Source: Geothrix terrae | Lineage (GTDB): Bacteria; Acidobacteriota; Holophagae; Holophagales; Holophagaceae | Length of the DNA stretch: 64,000 nt | Assembly (NCBI RefSeq): GCF_022808775.1 | Contig: NZ_JAKZLA010000007.1 | Coordinates: 39,751-103,750, forward strand | Direction of reading: 5' to 3' | Shown here: in pieces, positions 14,731-35,687 of the stretch | How positions within the stretch are numbered: the stretch's first letter is position 1 | Layout of the letters: every line of letters starts with the position of its first letter | Translations under genes and position numbers: made by a program | Notes under the pieces: generated by a model | What the model saw: the letters and a program-made list of their open reading frames with translations, nothing else | The model's database searches: none | What the model was told of the DNA's origin: nothing

Positions 14731-16752
14731 CTAGCTCCGCCCCGGCTCGCGTCCCAGCAGCGCCTCGGCCTGATCCAGGGCCGAGGCCGGGCCGCTGAGG
14801 GCCAGCAGGTCGCCCGCCTGGAGGCGCGCCTCGGGCCGGGGCTCCAGCAGGTGTCCCTCCCGCAGCAGGGCCACCAGGGCCGCCCCTGAACCGCCCGGCA
14901 GATCCAGGTCTCCCAGGCTGCGGCCCAGCGAGGGGCAGCGGGGCCCGATGCGGAGGGTGCGCCAGCCCCCGGCCGGAGCCGCGGAGGCCGCGCTTGGATC
15001 GCCCCAGGGATCCCGGGCATCCGTGCCCATCCAGTCGGCGCCGGCGTCCAGGTCCCTCTGGAGGCCCCTGGCCCGCCGCCAGAGCAGCAGCGGGATCGCC
15101 AGGGCCGCGGCCGCGCCCAGCGCGCCCAGGGAGGCGAGGGGGATGAGGGCCGAGACCGCCGCCAGCACAGGCAGGCCCGTGAGCAGCAGCACGCCAAGGC
15201 GCAGGCCCGTGCGGAAGGCGCGGCGCATGTCGGGGCGGCTGCCCAGGCCGCCGGGACCCGGGAGGTCCAGCAGGCGCTCGGCCAGGGTCCGGGTGCGGCG
15301 CACCATGCGGCTCACCAGGAGGCCCACCACGACCACCGCCGCCAGCAGGACCGCGCCCTGGGCCAGGGTGTGCCCCAGCGCGCCCCGCCCTTCGAGCCAG
15401 GTGGCGCCCAGCCGCATCACCCGCGGGGCGAGGACCCCCACCAGGCCGATGAGCACCGCATCCAGCAGCAGGCGCAGGAAGGTCCGCCGCACCGCGACCC
15501 CCGGGGCCTTGCGAAGCGCCGGGGCCCGCAGGGCGGCGGCCCAGGACTGGTAGAGGCCCAGGTAGGTCTTCAGGGCCACGGGCAGGTGCCGCTCCACGAA
15601 CCGGGCCGCGGGCTCCCCTCCGCTGAGGAGCGCCGGCGTGGCCAGGGCCGTGGCCACGCCGATGGCCGCCAGCAGGGCGTAGCGGGAAGGGTCCACCACG
15701 CCCAGGCCGATGCCCGCGCTGAGGAGGATGAACCCGAACTCCCCCACCTGCCCCAGGGCGAGGCCCGCGCGCACGCCAAGGGCCAGGGGCAGGCCCGCGA
15801 GCGTGGCCCCCACAGTGACGGAAAGGGCGTTCACCACGATGACCAGGGCGGTGAAGAGCAGCACCAGCGGCCAGTCGCGCGCCACCACCGCCGGTTCCAT
15901 CAGCATGCCCACCGCCACGAAGAACATGGCCGCGAAGAGGTCCCGCAGGGGGTGGACCAGGTGCTCCACCTTGCGGCCCCGGCCGGATTCGCAGACCAGC
16001 ATGCCCGCCACGAAGGCGCCCATGGCCACGGAGAAACCCGCCCAGGCCGCCAGCTGGGCCAGGCCGAAGCAGAGGGCCGCGGCCACCACCAGCAGCACCT
16101 CGTCCCGGGCATGGTCCGCCACCCAGCGCACGGCGCGGGGCACCACCAGGCGGCCCATGCCGATGAGCACGGCCAGGAAGGCAGCCAGCTTGAGCAGGGT
16201 GCCCGCGATGGCCCTGGCGCTGGGTCCGCCCAGGGAGGCCGCCGCCGTGAGCGCCGCCAGGAGCAGCACGGCGTGGAGGTCCTCCACCAGCAGGACGCCC
16301 AGGATCGTCTCCTTCAGCGGGCCCCGGATGCCCCGCTCGTCGAAGAGCTTGGCCAGGATCATGGTGGAGGCGATGGCGAGGCTGGCGCCGAAGAAGGCGC
16401 TCTCCAGGGGCGGCCACCCCAGCAGCCGCGCCGCGAGGAAGCCCACCACCAGCTGGGTCCCCACCTGCAGCGTGCCCGTGAGCAGCGCCTGCGGCCCGGC
16501 CTGCAGCAGCTTCGACAGGCTGAACTCCAGGCCGATGGTGAACATCAGGAGGATGACGCCCAGCTCGCCCATGAGGCGCACGTTGTCCAGGTCCGCCACC
16601 AGCGGCACGGGCACATGGGGGCCGACGATCATGCCCGCCAGGAGGTAGCCCAGGACCGCCGGCTGCTTCAGCTTCTGGAAGAGCACCGAAGTCAGCGCGG
16701 CGACGCCCAGCACCATGGCCAGGTCCAGCAGGAGGCGCGCGTGCCCCTCCAC
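14731..16752 (-). CDS. CPA2-family cation:proton antiporter with RCK_C domain
   Basis: 673 residues. The first 380 or so form 12-13 transmembrane helices of a KefB/YbaL-like antiporter (LKQPAVLGYLLAGMIVGPH, LGELGVILLMFTIGLEFS pattern, FVAGMLVCES). Additional membrane segments follow, then a C-terminal TrkA-C (RCK_C) domain beginning near LRIGPRCPSLGR. It probably exchanges K+ or Na+ for protons under ligand control. No N-terminal RCK (Rossmann) domain is present. Its start lies 4 bases after the stop of the RCK channel gene, so the two are likely one operon for potassium/pH homeostasis. Confidence 0.85.
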   Translation of the reverse strand: MEGHARLLLDLAMVLGVAALTSVLFQKLKQPAVLGYLLAGMIVGPHVPVPLVADLDNVRLMGELGVILLMFTIGLEFSLSKLLQAGPQALLTGTLQVGTQLVVGFLAARLLGWPPLESAFFGASLAIASTMILAKLFDERGIRGPLKETILGVLLVEDLHAVLLLAALTAAASLGGPSARAIAGTLLKLAAFLAVLIGMGRLVVPRAVRWVADHARDEVLLVVAAALCFGLAQLAAWAGFSVAMGAFVAGMLVCESGRGRKVEHLVHPLRDLFAAMFFVAVGMLMEPAVVARDWPLVLLFTALVIVVNALSVTVGATLAGLPLALGVRAGLALGQVGEFGFILLSAGIGLGVVDPSRYALLAAIGVATALATPALLSGGEPAARFVERHLPVALKTYLGLYQSWAAALRAPALRKAPGVAVRRTFLRLLLDAVLIGLVGVLAPRVMRLGATWLEGRGALGHTLAQGAVLLAAVVVVGLLVSRMVRRTRTLAERLLDLPGPGGLGSRPDMRRAFRTGLRLGVLLLTGLPVLAAVSALIPLASLGALGAAAALAIPLLLWRRARGLQRDLDAGADWMGTDARDPWGDPSAASAAPAGGWRTLRIGPRCPSLGRSLGDLDLPGGSGAALVALLREGHLLEPRPEARLQAGDLLALSGPASALDQAEALLGREPGRS

Positions 16753-26314: not shown

Positions 26315-26704
26315 ATGCGTCATTACGAGACCATCTTCATCGCCTCCCCCACGCTGACGGACGAGCAGAGCGATGAGCTCGTCAAGCAGTTCGAGGGGAT
26401 CATTGCCGAGCAGGGTGGCGAGCTGCTCAAGACCGACAAGTGGGGCCGCAAGAAGCTGGCCTACGAAGTCCAGAAGTTCAGCGAGGGCTACTACACGCTG
26501 TTCGAGATGAACGCGGGCCCCGACCTCATCGCCGAGCTGGAGCGCCGCTTCCGCAACCACGATTCGGTCATCAAGTACCTGAGCGTCCGCATGGACGAGG
26601 CCGAGAAGGCCGCGGGCCGCGCCAAGCAGCGCATCGAGCGCGAGGCCAAGCGCAAGGCCCAGGCCGGCATCAAGGAACGTTCCGCTGAAGAGGTGATGGG
26701 ATGA
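26315..26704 (+). CDS. rpsF: 30S ribosomal protein S6
   Basis: 129 residues with the S6 core: [45 protein letters not shown], and a charged C-terminal tail. AAGGAGGACAG precedes ATG 26315. The stop overlaps rpsR by ATGA. S6 and S18 form a heterodimer on the 30S platform, in line with translational coupling. There is no ssb between them. Confidence 0.95.
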
Positions 26705-26967
26705 AGCGCCGCGCCGATGCCAAGAAGGGCAAGCCCAAGAAGAAGAAGGCCTTTGGGGGACGACGCGCCAAGTTCTGCAAGTTCTGCGTCGAGAAGAGCA
26801 CCCTCATCGACTACAAGGACGTGAAGACCCTCCAGGCCTTCACCCCCGAGCGCGGCAAGGTGCTGCCCCGCCGCACCAGCGGCGTGTGCGCCGTCCACCA
26901 GCGCGCCCTCGTGGAAGCCATCAAGCGCGCTCGCAACATCGCGCTGCTCCCCTTCGCCACGGACTAG
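26701..26967 (+). CDS. rpsR: 30S ribosomal protein S18
   Basis: 88 residues: a Lys/Arg-rich N-terminus, [16 protein letters not shown] with two cysteines, [22 protein letters not shown] and the conserved ending [13 protein letters not shown]. It follows rpsF with an ATGA overlap. rplI, the usual next gene, is absent. Degenerate copies of the 3' end of this gene occur at 27032-27106 and 29267-29385. Confidence 0.95.
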
Positions 26968-26990
26968 TCCTGGCGCTGGCGGACTTTCAA

Positions 26991-27020
26991 CGAAGAGGGG
27001 GCCGAGCGGCCCCCTCTTCG
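26991..27020 (+). terminator. Terminator after rpsF-rpsR
   Basis: CGAAGAGGGGGCC pairs perfectly with GGCCCCCTCTTCG around GAGC, followed by TTT. Confidence 0.85.
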
Positions 27021-27031
27021 TTTCCGCACGA

Positions 27032-27106
27032 AAGCCTCCCCCGGAGCCTCCTCCGCGACCCGCATCGTCCCTCGCATCGCGCTGCTGCCGTTCGCCTCGG
27101 ATTAGG
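27032..27106. repeat. Direct repeat 1 containing rpsR 3'-end copy
   Basis: 75 bases that match 29311-29385 (offset 2279) with about three differences. Its last 35 bases (CGCATCGCGCTGCTGCCGTT and so on to GGATTAG) are a diverged copy of the rpsR end, including the stop. The two copies bracket the sulfatase-fold gene. The 88 bases from 27107 to 27194 hold no recognisable feature. Confidence 0.85.
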
Positions 27107-27194
27107 CGCTGTCAGGCCGAGCCTGCTCGGACGTTACGGCGCCAATTCCCGTACTTCCGCAGGAAGTTCGGGGCCAGTCCTGATCGTAGTAATC

Positions 27195-27226
27195 GACAAA
27201 GCGGGGGTGGGCGCCCCCGCTTTGTC
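27195..27226. terminator. Hairpin downstream of sulfatase-fold gene
   Basis: GACAAAGCGGGGG (27195-27207) pairs with CCCCCGCTTTGTC (27214-27226). It lies about 50 bases past the minus-strand stop at 27278 and probably ends that transcript; the T-run is modest on either strand. Confidence 0.75.
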
Positions 27227-27277
27227 GGATCCGGCTTCCATGCCAGCGGCGACTCGGATGTCAGCCGCCTCGCCAGT

Positions 27278-28897
27278 TCAAGGGAGGTCCGGCACCCCCG
27301 GCTGGGGCATGAACACACGTTTATCCTTGTCGATGATCAGGTAGGAAATGGGCTTGCCGAACAATCCCATGGGCGAGCCGTAGAAGGCCCGGTGCCTGGA
27401 GGCGTCTTCGGGGCTGGGCACCGACCAGAGCGTCGCCATCCCGGGCATCCGCTGGCCCAGGAGATTCCGGATGGATTCACTTATCAGAGCGTGCGACGCA
27501 TGGTCCTGCCAGCCTGGATCGATGCCCTGGAGCCTGCCTGCCAGGTCAGGGCTGGAAAGCACGATCACGGGGACAGTCCACTCGGAAATGCCGCATTCCC
27601 CGGGCAGATTCCCGTGGGGAGCCTTGGCCTGGAAATTTTGCCCATGGTCGCTGGTATAGAACACCAGGGTACCCTCCGGAAGCCGCCCGGCCACGCCCTG
27701 TAGGAACGCCAGCGAGGCCCGGGAGATCGCGATGGAATAGGGGTTCGGGGCCCCGGCCAGCTCAGGCGGAAGGCTATGCGCATAGGGGAAGTGGGTCCCG
27801 ACCTTGTTGATGAGGGTGAACGTCCGCTCCGCCTTCCCCAGCTGGCCGATCAGCGCGGGGATGGCATTGAGATCCCGTTCCGTTCGCACACCCAACGCCC
27901 CGGACGGCAGGACTTCGTCGATGAAGGACTTCTCGAGGTCATCGAAGTAGTCCTGGATGGCCAGGTCGTTCAACACACCCTGGCAATCGATGTAGGCAGT
28001 TCGGAAACCAGCCTCCTTCGCCATCTGGAAAAGGCTGGGGAAGTGGCGAAGGGATGTTCCCGGATCTTTCGGATCAGCGCCCCGCCTGAGCATCAGGTTC
28101 GACGCGGCGCTGGAATTGGCGAAGCTGTACCCCAGACCGAGATTGCGGAGGTTCGGCAGGTGGGCCCGATCGACCAGGTCCCGGAACGCGCCCCCTTCCA
28201 CCGATTCGTCGATGACGAGAACGAGGTGCCGCACCATGGGGTCAATGGGAACGTGCTGGAACGCCGCCGCAGCTTTCCCGTCCTGTACCCATCGGCGGGC
28301 CGCGGCGTCCACGGCCAGAGTTCCGGCGTGCAGCCCCGCCTGGAACTGCATGGGAAACCCATTCAAAGCCGTGTCTCCACCGATGGCCAGGATCGCCACG
28401 TACATGACGACCGCGGTCAGGCTGGCGGTGATCATGGGGATGCTGTTCCTGGCCCGCAGGGCGACGCGGATCCAGATAAGCAGGACCAGCACCCCCAGGA
28501 TCTGCAGCACCACGATGAGGATGGGTGCCGTGAATTGGGATAGCGCATCTCCCGTGTTCCCGACCGATTCCAAGAGGGTCTTCCCGTCGACCAGGGTCAG
28601 GGGCCGCCCCCTGATCCTGAAGAAGGAGGTGCCGACCAGAAAATTGAGAGAGAAGAAAAGCCCCCCCAGGATCGCCCACCGGCGACGGGCGAGCCCGCAA
28701 CCCACCAGCGCCAAGACTGCGGCCAGGATTTCCACCAGGTAGATCACCTGTTTCAGCGGGTGCCCCAAGGTGGCCATCCGGTGGGGGATCTGGGGATTCA
28801 TCCACAGCGATAGCGCCACCAGCAGCGCGCACGCGACCAGCACCTGCGCTCGTCGGGTCAACTTGAGAGGTCTGGGCAGGATCGATTCCGTGACCAC
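27278..28897 (-). CDS. Membrane sulfatase-fold phosphotransferase (EptA/LtaS-like)
   Basis: 539 residues. Four or five transmembrane segments occupy about residues 15-175, followed by a periplasmic alkaline-phosphatase-like domain: VLVIDESVEGG (metal-binding Asp/Glu), SSAASNLMLRRG at the nucleophile region (Ser where Thr is usual), NKVGTHFPY and FYTSDHGQ (Asp-His ligands). It likely transfers phosphoethanolamine or phosphoglycerol to an envelope glycan or lipid. Starts with GTG 28897 after GGAG. Base composition looks lower in G+C than the neighbours. It is enclosed by rpsR-tail direct repeats, suggesting insertion. Confidence 0.8.
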   Translation of the reverse strand: MVTESILPRPLKLTRRAQVLVACALLVALSLWMNPQIPHRMATLGHPLKQVIYLVEILAAVLALVGCGLARRRWAILGGLFFSLNFLVGTSFFRIRGRPLTLVDGKTLLESVGNTGDALSQFTAPILIVVLQILGVLVLLIWIRVALRARNSIPMITASLTAVVMYVAILAIGGDTALNGFPMQFQAGLHAGTLAVDAAARRWVQDGKAAAAFQHVPIDPMVRHLVLVIDESVEGGAFRDLVDRAHLPNLRNLGLGYSFANSSAASNLMLRRGADPKDPGTSLRHFPSLFQMAKEAGFRTAYIDCQGVLNDLAIQDYFDDLEKSFIDEVLPSGALGVRTERDLNAIPALIGQLGKAERTFTLINKVGTHFPYAHSLPPELAGAPNPYSIAISRASLAFLQGVAGRLPEGTLVFYTSDHGQNFQAKAPHGNLPGECGISEWTVPVIVLSSPDLAGRLQGIDPGWQDHASHALISESIRNLLGQRMPGMATLWSVPSPEDASRHRAFYGSPMGLFGKPISYLIIDKDKRVFMPQPGVPDLP

Positions 28898-29197
28898 TGG
28901 AGGCTCCGGATCAGGTCACTGTGAACACCTGACGCCCCAAGGACAAGTATTGCGGATGGGGGGAATCAAGAAGCCTATATTGATCTGCCTTTGGGACTTT
29001 AGTCAGAGAATTCGAAGCGGACGCTCTGGGAGGGTCAGACGAACCGGGCTGGGACTCAGCGGAGACAAGGTGGTTCCATTTCAAGAGCCCCGGACGAGGC
29101 CAGGCGCTGGCAGATATTCAACGAAGGGAGCCATCCGGTCTCCTTTGGAGCCTACCCGTCCCTTCGGAACCGGTCGCCTTCTGCCGCCCTCCAACTC
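28898..29197. other. AT-rich gap upstream of sulfatase-fold gene
   Basis: No convincing gene. Positions about 28950-29020 are noticeably AT-rich and probably hold the minus-strand promoter of the sulfatase-fold gene, though no clear -35/-10 pair was found. GGCGCTGGCAGATATTCAACGAAG (here split at 29101-29125) resembles the sequence right after rpsR (26971-26995), indicating that post-rpsR sequence is also duplicated here. Confidence 0.5.
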
Positions 29198-29266
29198 GCC
29201 TCCATCTGACGGGCGCCCCTCCGGGTGCGCCCTCCCACTCGCTCCGCTCGTGGAGACGGAGCCTCC
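29198..29266. repeat. Long-form repeat module, 29.2-kb copy
   Basis: CGCCTCCATCTGACG at 29198-29212, then CTCCCACTCGC and a GGAGACGGAGCCTCC ending. The same order of blocks occurs on the minus strand at 21088-21012 and 32489-32426 within stop-codon repeats. It directly precedes an rpsR-tail copy. Confidence 0.7.
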
Positions 29267-29385
29267 ATGGAAGCCATCAAGCGCGCACTCCGGACGGCGG
29301 AGCCCCGCTCCGAAGGCTCCCCCGGAGCCTCCTCCGCGACCCGCATCGTCCCTCGCATCGCGCTGCCGCCGTTCGCCACGGATTA
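29267..29385. repeat. Direct repeat 2 containing split rpsR 3'-end copy
   Basis: ATGGAAGCCATCAAGCGC (29267-29284) matches rpsR 26911-26928 in 17 of 18 bases; after a 40-odd-base interruption, 29350-29385 matches the rpsR end through its stop. Positions 29311-29385 are the partner of 27032-27106. The reading frame is not kept across the interruption, so it is not a functional S18 tail. Confidence 0.8.
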
Positions 29386-29402
29386 GGTTCGTTTTTGATC
29401 CT

Positions 29403-29438
29403 GCGAAAAAGCGGGGGCCTCGGCCCCCGCTTTTTCGC
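29403..29438. terminator. Bidirectional terminator
   Basis: GCGAAAAAGCGGGGGCC pairs with GGCCCCCGCTTTTTCGC; A-run on one side and T-run on the other. It lies just beyond the stop of the minus-strand lipoprotein gene (29457). Confidence 0.88.
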
Positions 29439-29456
29439 ATGGCATAAGACAACTAC

Positions 29457-30572
29457 TCAGTCCGTCACCGCGAACACCACGCGGTCGTTGCGCAGGCGCT
29501 CGGGGTCCAGGATGCGGATGGTGGCGTTCTTCCGGTCGTCAGCGAGGATCACGGTGTAGTCCTTGTCCTTCTGGAGGGAGCCGGGCACCACGTTCACCTT
29601 GCTGATCTTGGCGAGGCCCACGTCCGAGGCCTGGATCTGGACCTGGGGATTCGGATCATCCAGCGGGAGATCCTTCACGAAGCGGGAAGCCACGGCCTTG
29701 GGGCCCATGCGGTCCTTGGCGAAGACGGGCACCACGATGACGCCTTCGTTCTCCAGCTGTTTGCGCTGGCCGACCAGGTAGTGCATCGAGTTGAGCTTGA
29801 CCTTCTGAGCCTGGCTCAGGGTGGTCAGCTCACTCACCTGGGCCGTCAGGGTGGTCTTCTCGGAATGGAGGGCGTCCACCTCCTCTTGCACCTTGGAGCG
29901 CTCGGTCTTCAGGTCCTGTACCTGGGTGGAGAGATCATCTCGATCCTTCTGCAGGGCCGCCCGCTGGTTGTGCAGGTACTCGGTGGGGCCGATCTCGGCC
30001 TTGCCTTGCGTGACAGCGGTGAAGTAGGCGCCGCCGGCGTACTGCTGGTAGACCTGCCAGCCAGGCTGGAGCTCTTCCAGGATGTTCGCCCGGGCGGCGA
30101 GGGCCTTGGCCTTCTCCTCCGAGAGGCCCTTGCCCTTCAGGAAGCGCACGGCCATGGCGAAGTGGTTGTCCTTCTCGGTGGCGATCTGGGGCTTGGGCAG
30201 CTGGGACTGGAGCTTGGCGACCTTGGTGTGGAGCTCGCCGATCTGCTTGTCGCGATCGAGGATCTCCTGCAGGAGGGCCGCGGTGCCGTTGTTCTTCTCG
30301 GCCTTGATGCGCGCCTCCAGGAGGGCCCGCTGGTCCTCCGTCAGCTGGATGCCCGCGGCGTTGGGCTGCAACCCCGCCTTGGCCATGGCTTCAGCCTGGG
30401 CCTTGGTGGCGCCCTGGGCCTGTCCTTCAGCCTGCTGGGCCTCCGCCACCTTGCTGGCGAAATCCTTGGATTCCGTGGACTCGGACTGCGACTTCTGATT
30501 GCACCCGACCGCGAGGGCGAGCGGGAGGACCGCGAGGGCGGCCCCGAGGGCGAAGGGTTTCAGGAATGTCAT
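29457..30572 (-). CDS. Coiled-coil lipoprotein, unknown function
   Basis: 371 residues. VLPLALAVGCNQ at the N-terminus is a lipobox. Residues about 90-290 are largely heptad-like coiled coil (RDKQIGELHTKVAKLQSQL, TQVQDLKTERSKVQEEVDALHSEK). The last 90 residues are a globular beta-rich domain (VIVVPVFAKDRMGPK, KDYTVILADDRKNATIRI). AGGAGG precedes ATG 30572. Not recognised as a named family. Possibly a periplasmic stalk or trans-envelope anchor. Monocistronic between two terminators. Confidence 0.75.
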   Translation of the reverse strand: MTFLKPFALGAALAVLPLALAVGCNQKSQSESTESKDFASKVAEAQQAEGQAQGATKAQAEAMAKAGLQPNAAGIQLTEDQRALLEARIKAEKNNGTAALLQEILDRDKQIGELHTKVAKLQSQLPKPQIATEKDNHFAMAVRFLKGKGLSEEKAKALAARANILEELQPGWQVYQQYAGGAYFTAVTQGKAEIGPTEYLHNQRAALQKDRDDLSTQVQDLKTERSKVQEEVDALHSEKTTLTAQVSELTTLSQAQKVKLNSMHYLVGQRKQLENEGVIVVPVFAKDRMGPKAVASRFVKDLPLDDPNPQVQIQASDVGLAKISKVNVVPGSLQKDKDYTVILADDRKNATIRILDPERLRNDRVVFAVTD

Positions 30573-30771
30573 GCACACCTCCTCAGGGAGCGGGGAACGT
30601 TGGACCTGAAGGGTGGTGCCGCCTCCGGATTCACGCAAGTTAATGTAGATACACCATTTGTTCTACCACCAACCCATCCCTGCGGAGGTGCGCCCCACTT
30701 AAAGGCCGTGATCTCTTCACTCAAGGAGGGGTCCATCGAAGCCGCGGCCGCGAAGATTTCTGCGCCGGCAC

Positions 30772-34932: not shown

Positions 34933-35433
34933 ATGACCGACGACAAGTCCGTTCCACGGCTCCCCATGCCCCTCCGCCGCCAGAAGGCCGTCCAGGCCGC
35001 ATGGAAGCCGCTGCTGTTCCAGTGGCTGGTGCCGGGGGCGGGCTACTGGATGATCGGCGAGAAGGGCCGGGCCAAGGTGTTCTTTGGTGTCTGGGTCCTC
35101 TTCTGCCTCCTTGGCGCCCTGCAGATGCAGCACGGCGCGGTGGCGGGAGTGAAGGGCGGCGTCTTCGTGCCCCAGGCCGGGGCCTGGCTGCCCACCCTGG
35201 GCGCCTTCGCCACCGCGGGCATCGGACCGGTGTACGGCGTGTTCGCCTGGGCCTTCGGCGGCGCGGGCACTGAGCCCGTGCGCACACTCACCCAGGAGTA
35301 CGGGGCCACTTACGTGATGGTCGCCGGCCTCCTCAACTGGCTCTGCTGCTTCGACCTCTGGGACCGCATCACCGGGCGCTGGGTCTTCCGCCTGCCCAAG
35401 GACGAGCAGGAGAAGATCGCCAAGGGCGAGTAG
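34933..35433 (+). CDS. Small membrane protein, DUF6677/TM2-like
   Basis: 166 residues. LFQWLVPGAGYWMIGEKGRAKVFFGVWVLFCLLGALQ is the TM2/DUF6677-like motif of a hydrophobic turn with Pro-Gly-X-Gly. About four transmembrane helices in all, ending in a charged tail (RLPKDEQEKIAKGE). It diverges from the sensor kinase. No function is assigned. Its last 115 bases are duplicated 250 bases downstream. Confidence 0.75.
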   Translation: MTDDKSVPRLPMPLRRQKAVQAAWKPLLFQWLVPGAGYWMIGEKGRAKVFFGVWVLFCLLGALQMQHGAVAGVKGGVFVPQAGAWLPTLGAFATAGIGPVYGVFAWAFGGAGTEPVRTLTQEYGATYVMVAGLLNWLCCFDLWDRITGRWVFRLPKDEQEKIAKGE

Positions 35434-35568
35434 CCATCACGCCCTCCGGGCCGCCGCTGGGCGCGCCTTCGGCTGCGCACGCGGCTCTGGCTGCCCGCGA
35501 TCGGACGTGCCACTGGCACGTCCTCCCACTCACGGGGCCTGCCGCCCCATTCGCGGAGCGGGGCCCCC
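35434..35568. repeat. GC-rich palindromic insert between tail copies
   Basis: Contains GGACGTGCC-ACT-GGCACGTCC (35503-35523) and CCTCCCACTCACGGGG, which resembles the CTCCCACTCGC block of the long repeat module. It separates the genuine gene end from its duplicate. Confidence 0.6.
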
Positions 35569-35687
35569 GGTCGCCGGCCTCCTCAACCGGCTCTGCTGCT
35601 TCGACCTCTGGGACCGCATCACCGGGCGCTGGATCTTCCGCCTGCCCAAGGACGAGCAGGAGAAGATCGCCAAGGGCGAGTAGCTAT
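35569..35687 (+). pseudogene. Duplicate of the 3' end of the 34.9-kb membrane gene
   Basis: Matches 35319-35437 at an offset of exactly 250 bases, including the TAG stop, with two clear substitutions within the coding part (AACTGG/AACCGG and GGGTCTT/GGATCTT). It has no start. The remaining gap to 35714 has GATCGGTGATCGGTGATCAG, a short tandem. Confidence 0.9.

Follow-up and report, generated by a model that had tools for sequence, protein, structure and literature searches.

Hairpin elements bracketed by duplicated gene ends in Geothrix, and a hotspot of gene turnover without integrase downstream of rpsR

In the genome of Geothrix terrae (G000), within a 64,000-nucleotide stretch of contig NZ_JAKZLA010000007.1 (positions 39,751 to 103,750, hereafter the window), a gene for a membrane sulfatase lies between two direct repeats that both finish with the 3' end of rpsR, the neighboring ribosomal protein gene. 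This raises the question of how copies of the end of a housekeeping gene came to stand on either side of an unrelated gene. The original prediction was integration at the 3' end of rpsR, with the repeats as att-like sequences that rebuild the gene end.

The host gene rpsR (26701-26967, plus strand), encoding ribosomal protein S18 (PF01084/TIGR00165), is intact and followed on the same strand by a post-stop region with a terminator (26970-27022, hairpin at 26993-27018). Adjacent to it lies repeat A (27024-27106, plus strand), consisting of a REP-like hairpin element (about 27030-27074) and the last 31 nt of rpsR (27075-27105), and then E2, a 73-nt module with two hairpins (27106-27178, plus strand) that occurs only downstream of rpsR and in four of the 12 genomes searched. 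A bidirectional terminator-like hairpin (27194-27227) is situated at the 3' end of the sulfatase gene. Beyond that gene, a displaced and degenerate copy of the last approximately 12 nt of rpsR with the terminator region (29087-29146, plus strand), alignable with the rpsR end and downstream region of genome G015, precedes a remnant of the spacer module E1 (29147-29185, plus strand), which is intact and tandemly repeated in genome G067. Repeat B (29186-29386, plus strand) is a longer displaced rpsR tail that is interrupted by two hairpin elements (about 29204-29267 and 29288-29355) and carries the rpsR stop at its end; another terminator-like hairpin (29404-29437) stands between it and the gene at 29457-30638. 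When E1 and E2 were searched for as dispersed repeats, full-length matches were located solely downstream of rpsR in the genomes searched.

The direct repeats 27024-27106 and 29305-29387 share 93% identity over 83 nt. A 75-base repeat with three differences had been described, and 72 of 75 positions are indeed identical once the right copy is taken at 29313-29387, two bases to the right of the 29311-29385 given originally; both copies end with the rpsR tail through its stop. A 111-nt query (27000-27110) matched the second copy in the same genome at 1e-29, the remaining matches being to the hairpin or the tail in part only. The hairpin of copy B reads AAGGCTCCCCCGGAGCCTCCTCCGCGACCCGCATCGTCCCTCG, with partial copies on other contigs, and the rpsR tail following the hairpin in each repeat reads CATCGCGCTGCTGCCGTTCGCC.CGGATTAG. 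It had been missed that a dispersed REP-like hairpin, and not rpsR, makes up the first half of each repeat, that the right copy is part of the longer, hairpin-interrupted rpsR tail at 29186-29386, and that a decayed rpsR end with its terminator is present at 29087-29126. The repeats at 27032 and 29311 are best explained as a composite unit present twice, in which a REP-like hairpin element adjoins a duplicated rpsR end.

The enclosed gene (27278-28897, minus strand) appears as cargo and encodes a membrane protein of 539 amino acids resembling sulfatases and phosphoethanolamine transferases, with a C-terminal sulfatase domain (PF00884, 3.4e-6) and an N-terminus of weak likeness to the phosphoethanolamine transferase CptA. 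Its G+C content of 0.638 (GC3 0.815) compares with a mean of 0.70 for long ORFs, and the earlier impression of foreign composition was a fair one. Codon use is likewise atypical, codon adaptation falling at the 18th percentile among 595 long ORFs, while neighboring genes range from the 44th to the 94th. A sulfatase gene is present at the same locus in genomes G025, G006 and G060, which makes four genomes with G. terrae; the nearest such loci are those of G. paludis SG195, Geothrix sp. SG200 and G. fuzhouensis SG12.

The interval from rpsR to the next conserved gene (34933-35433, plus strand), which forms its distal edge, was compared among the 38 genomes in which both edges were seen. Its length varies from 65 bp to 12.3 kb, whereas most other gaps between neighboring core genes vary far less, apart from a few of 1-3 kb. 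Near-empty sites, as anticipated for an insertion, occur in G009 and G066, where rpsR is separated from the next core gene by 65-66 bp, and the other cargo that had been envisaged was found as well: G015 and G024 have only the gene corresponding to 29457, G005 has a Ser/Thr-kinase-like gene, and other relatives have dctA together with a two-component system or further genes. Among the interval ORFs of relatives, which were inspected by eye and not HMM-scanned, no integrase or mobility gene was recognized. Within the genus, the interval from rpsR to 34933 is a hotspot of gene turnover that is free of integrases. Insertion at the rpsR end is supported by this hotspot interval together with the occurrence of the sulfatase in four genomes and its atypical codon use. 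As a separate observation, the terminator directly after rpsR (26967 onward) falls into several unrelated types depending on the species, a pattern resembling repeated exchange; such exchange is only suggestive of an excess of homologous recombination in the flanking core genes. Contig breaks inside rpsR in some MAGs were considered as recombination sites and rejected, as they fit overlaps of mixed strains.

A DNA search revealed extra rpsR ends in many relatives. Tail copies of 78 nt are found in G067 (as two tandem units of 199 bp), G068 and the clade of G. terrae, one of about 47 nt is found around the kinase-like gene of G005, and tails of about 28-31 nt in G002, G028, G063 and G064. A further candidate tail (G031C35) proved to be a mere contig overlap and was discarded. 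The copies in G067, G068 and G063 carry the variants of their own species, and in some genomes the duplication of the rpsR end extends beyond the stop. In G005 (L058, 903-3400, reoriented strand) the kinase-like gene has rpsR on one side and, on the other, a displaced rpsR end that carries a terminator of its own, an arrangement that parallels the sulfatase block. Within the window, 27107-27277 and 28898-29052 match G060 with 78% and 75% identity, while 29087-29452 matches the segment of G015 from the rpsR end to gene 29457 with 87% identity over 340 nt. Given these alignments of the left part with G060 and of 29087-29452 with G015, the locus is best read as an rpsR tail-sulfatase haplotype, as in G060, placed ahead of a haplotype of rpsR end, terminator, E1, tail and gene 29457, as in G015.

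The composite unit is not peculiar to rpsR. Gene ends followed by a hairpin element, termed S, and then by a copy of the gene end constitute a genome-wide class in Geothrix. A sample of the G. terrae genome (864 kb, 645 ORFs) was scanned for copies of gene ends shortly downstream, and seven tail copies reached a score of at least 22, compared with none in permuted and none in reverse-complement controls. Five of these are S cases, and the other two, L105 (a tandem pilin-like pair) and L096, represent ordinary similarity. At score 20 there were 14 tail copies against two and one in the controls; the weaker ones are not all S cases, and further S cases lie below 22. The same architecture was recognized at the gene 34933-35433 and at asnS, groEL and clpB-, ridA-, yebC-, glmS-, hppD- and macB-like genes, names beyond those of the Pfam-scanned window genes being provisional and read from C-terminal sequence. 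Loci were also collected by S sequence alone, and about 26 of these 36 loci, which are not all independent, have flanking direct repeats above the 95% control level, mostly gene ends; about ten, all short and of the R-type, are S-like matches without a clear flanking repeat. Each query yields about a dozen S matches in the G. terrae genome, and at most sites the gene-end copies are spaced by about 55-160 nt. In a 200-kb sample of the AT-rich outgroup genome G067, whose composition is too different for a firm contrast, no such duplications stood out.

Empty and tandem states of S coexist, and individual loci illustrate this. In the window, the gene 34933-35433 has its 3' end duplicated around a two-hairpin, REP-like S element of the M-type (135 nt, 35434-35568, plus strand), after which a 115-nt copy of the gene's 3' end (35569-35683, plus strand) ends at the stop codon and gives way to unrelated DNA. 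The 115-nt boundary is common to G. terrae, G015 and G034, each with a single unit, and to G006 with two, and the site is empty in the closest relative G025, in G007 and in most other genomes. At asnS, the same 58-nt boundary is found in G. terrae, G015, G024, G060, G001, G063 and G026, in addition to decayed forms; at least seven lineages from different parts of the tree carry the duplication with a highly similar S, and about 16 genomes lack it. Two tandem S-plus-tail units were observed at asnS (L108, reverse strand near 16480; L136), a site common to distant species of the genus, and three tandem S, each followed by a gene-end copy, at a ridA-like gene (L196, about 1430-1930). In G001 the 3' end of a glmS-like gene is duplicated around an S element (L220, 1440-1620); in other bacteria glmS is the gene used by Tn7.

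Most of the duplications stop at the stop codon, and at most sites the 16-18 nt past both stops are no more alike than background, which renders plain target-site duplication without homogenisation and drift inadequate as an explanation. A mechanism specific for stop codons was also considered and is weakened by duplicated gene starts at L189 and L202 as well as by the copy at the glmS-like gene, which ends just before the stop. At L189 (1460-1740), the S elements stand at the start of an rsmI-like gene and duplicate its 5' and not its 3' end.

The S elements themselves have properties of structured sequences. Three long ones fold better than shuffled sequences (z from -2.0 to -2.7); for the hairpin of the window repeat, which is short at 52 nt, the difference is not clear (z -1.1). 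The first stem of S shows covariation across genes and species, with 12 double-change cells, a number reached in none of 500 shuffles. No match near the gathering score was obtained for the hairpin elements in Rfam. At asnS, identity within S (0.86-0.96) exceeds that at four-fold sites of the host gene (0.70-0.86) in every pair, and S is therefore either constrained or has been exchanged between species after their divergence. The asnS copies match their own gene with 0.95-1.0 identity in five of seven genomes, more than the genes match each other, and the copies in G060 and G026 match their own gene poorly. Such likeness of copy and own gene is as expected if the repeats are homogenised or the duplication is young.

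We regard it as the probable explanation, held with moderate confidence, that the insertion of S elements brought about long duplications of gene ends, and that loss, amplification and exchange of cargo are driven by recombination of one duplicate with the other, the sulfatase locus being one case. S would have been inserted in the past by some activity that duplicates 16 to 150 or more nt of its target, and selection may have retained insertions only where the host gene stayed complete. Duplicated ends that recombine with each other could then lead to clean loss, and hence empty sites, to tandem gain and to homogenisation. The duplicated ends and the conserved rpsR would also offer homology, a landing place for incoming DNA, and the sulfatase block may have arrived in this way. 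More tentatively, and as a possibility rather than an expectation, S might represent small mobile DNA of a new class that settles at housekeeping gene ends and duplicates the end up to the stop, with each lineage bound to one gene and moved by some enzyme or by the host recombination machinery alone.

As an alternative that we consider rather unlikely, no mobile element would be involved at all: S would be a functional hairpin of the 3'-UTR or terminator, and gene end and S would have been duplicated locally by slippage or unequal crossing over and subsequently homogenised. The tandem units at rpsR in G067, at gene 34933 in G006 and at the ridA-like gene in G. terrae are in line with this, as are the resemblance of copies to their own gene and the conserved, structured nature of S. 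Single-unit sites, however, consist of end, S, end and unrelated sequence without a second S, and at the empty 34933 site of G025 S is missing altogether. Furthermore, many unrelated genes have related S cores beside them (71-98% identity to one query), which argues that S has been copied between loci.

Improbable to a greater degree is the originally predicted integration, in which the sulfatase block is a degenerate integrative element at the rpsR 3' end, served by a tyrosine recombinase in trans and flanked by attL and attR. Insertion at the rpsR end stands, as the displaced rpsR end with its old terminator downstream, the restored gene end, the near-empty sites, the varied cargo and the codon use all agree with it. 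The att sites do not: the left boundaries of the displaced tails lie about 78, 47, 31, 28 and 12 nt from the rpsR end, a poor fit to a single, fixed att core, and the same structure recurs at asnS, groEL, ridA and other, unrelated genes with merely about 55-160 nt between the copies. As had been stated, no phage-type integrase or tyrosine recombinase is encoded on the 225-kb contig of the window (C12), to which none of the seven PF00589 matches in the genome belongs, and relatives' interval ORFs gave the same picture by eye. The viral contigs searched contained neither the rpsR tail pattern, as expected of an attP, nor S motifs.

In diversity-generating retroelements (DGRs), too, the 3' end of a gene occurs together with a hairpin and a repeat that is copied. 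S elements as classical REPs mobilized by RAYT transposases or as DGR- or retron-like products of reverse transcriptase are nevertheless very improbable and were rejected despite their palindromic, intergenic character next to stop codons, because Y1_Tnp gave no match in G. terrae or in 42 of 47 genomes of the genus (five were positive) and RVT_1 none in G. terrae, G015, G001, G063 and G026, differences between copies were not adenine-specific in the case read, and IS200/IS605-type enzymes, RAYTs included, make no larger target duplications (PMC2817692).

Most clear S copies carry an apparent insertion scar, a gene end duplicated over tens to more than a hundred bases. Different species have the scar at the same position, and this site is empty in some cases and holds tandem units in others. 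By means of the scar, insertion, loss and amplification of S can be followed in complete genomes and put to experimental test. Bacterial genomes often contain small palindromic repeats, and the manner of their spread is unsettled. The class described here may mark a new way for small mobile DNA to settle beside essential genes while leaving them unbroken. Gene ends such as that of rpsR can, moreover, become landing places for new genes without an integrase, which bears on many hotspots that lack recognizable mobile elements.

Among known systems, integrative elements at gene 3' ends, of the tRNA, guaA and rpsI type, likewise restore the gene end and leave a displaced end on the far side; here, there is no integrase, no fixed core and, at most sites, an insert of only about 55-160 nt. 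Structured small repeats measuring 100-200 bp have been well described, several families of them showing target duplications (PMC2229807), and S shares with REPs and bacterial MITE-like repeats (REP, RPE, ERIC, Correia) that it is small, intergenic, strongly palindromic, non-coding, strain-variable and present in several copies per genome (PMC2229807; PMC3733652). It differs from them in being flanked by gene-end copies of 16 to 150 or more nt, in that each S lineage is tied to one gene end across species and in that most genomes are devoid of RAYT; classical REPs usually exceed 100 copies (PMC2817692), more than the dozen or so matches per S query. Among the open-licence papers searched, none was found to describe long gene-end duplications on either side of small hairpin elements. 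Hotspots without mobile elements, supplied through recombination in the core genes beside them, have been amply documented (PMC5635113), and these, or minimal mobile elements (term from PMC3388099), resemble the interval downstream of rpsR in the varied genes between two conserved ones, the lack of visible mobility genes and an exchange ascribed to homologous recombination, which for Geothrix we infer. We rate the sulfatase locus itself as a case of such an integrase-free hotspot, with the difference that exchange here leaves behind duplicated rpsR ends and stacked terminators.
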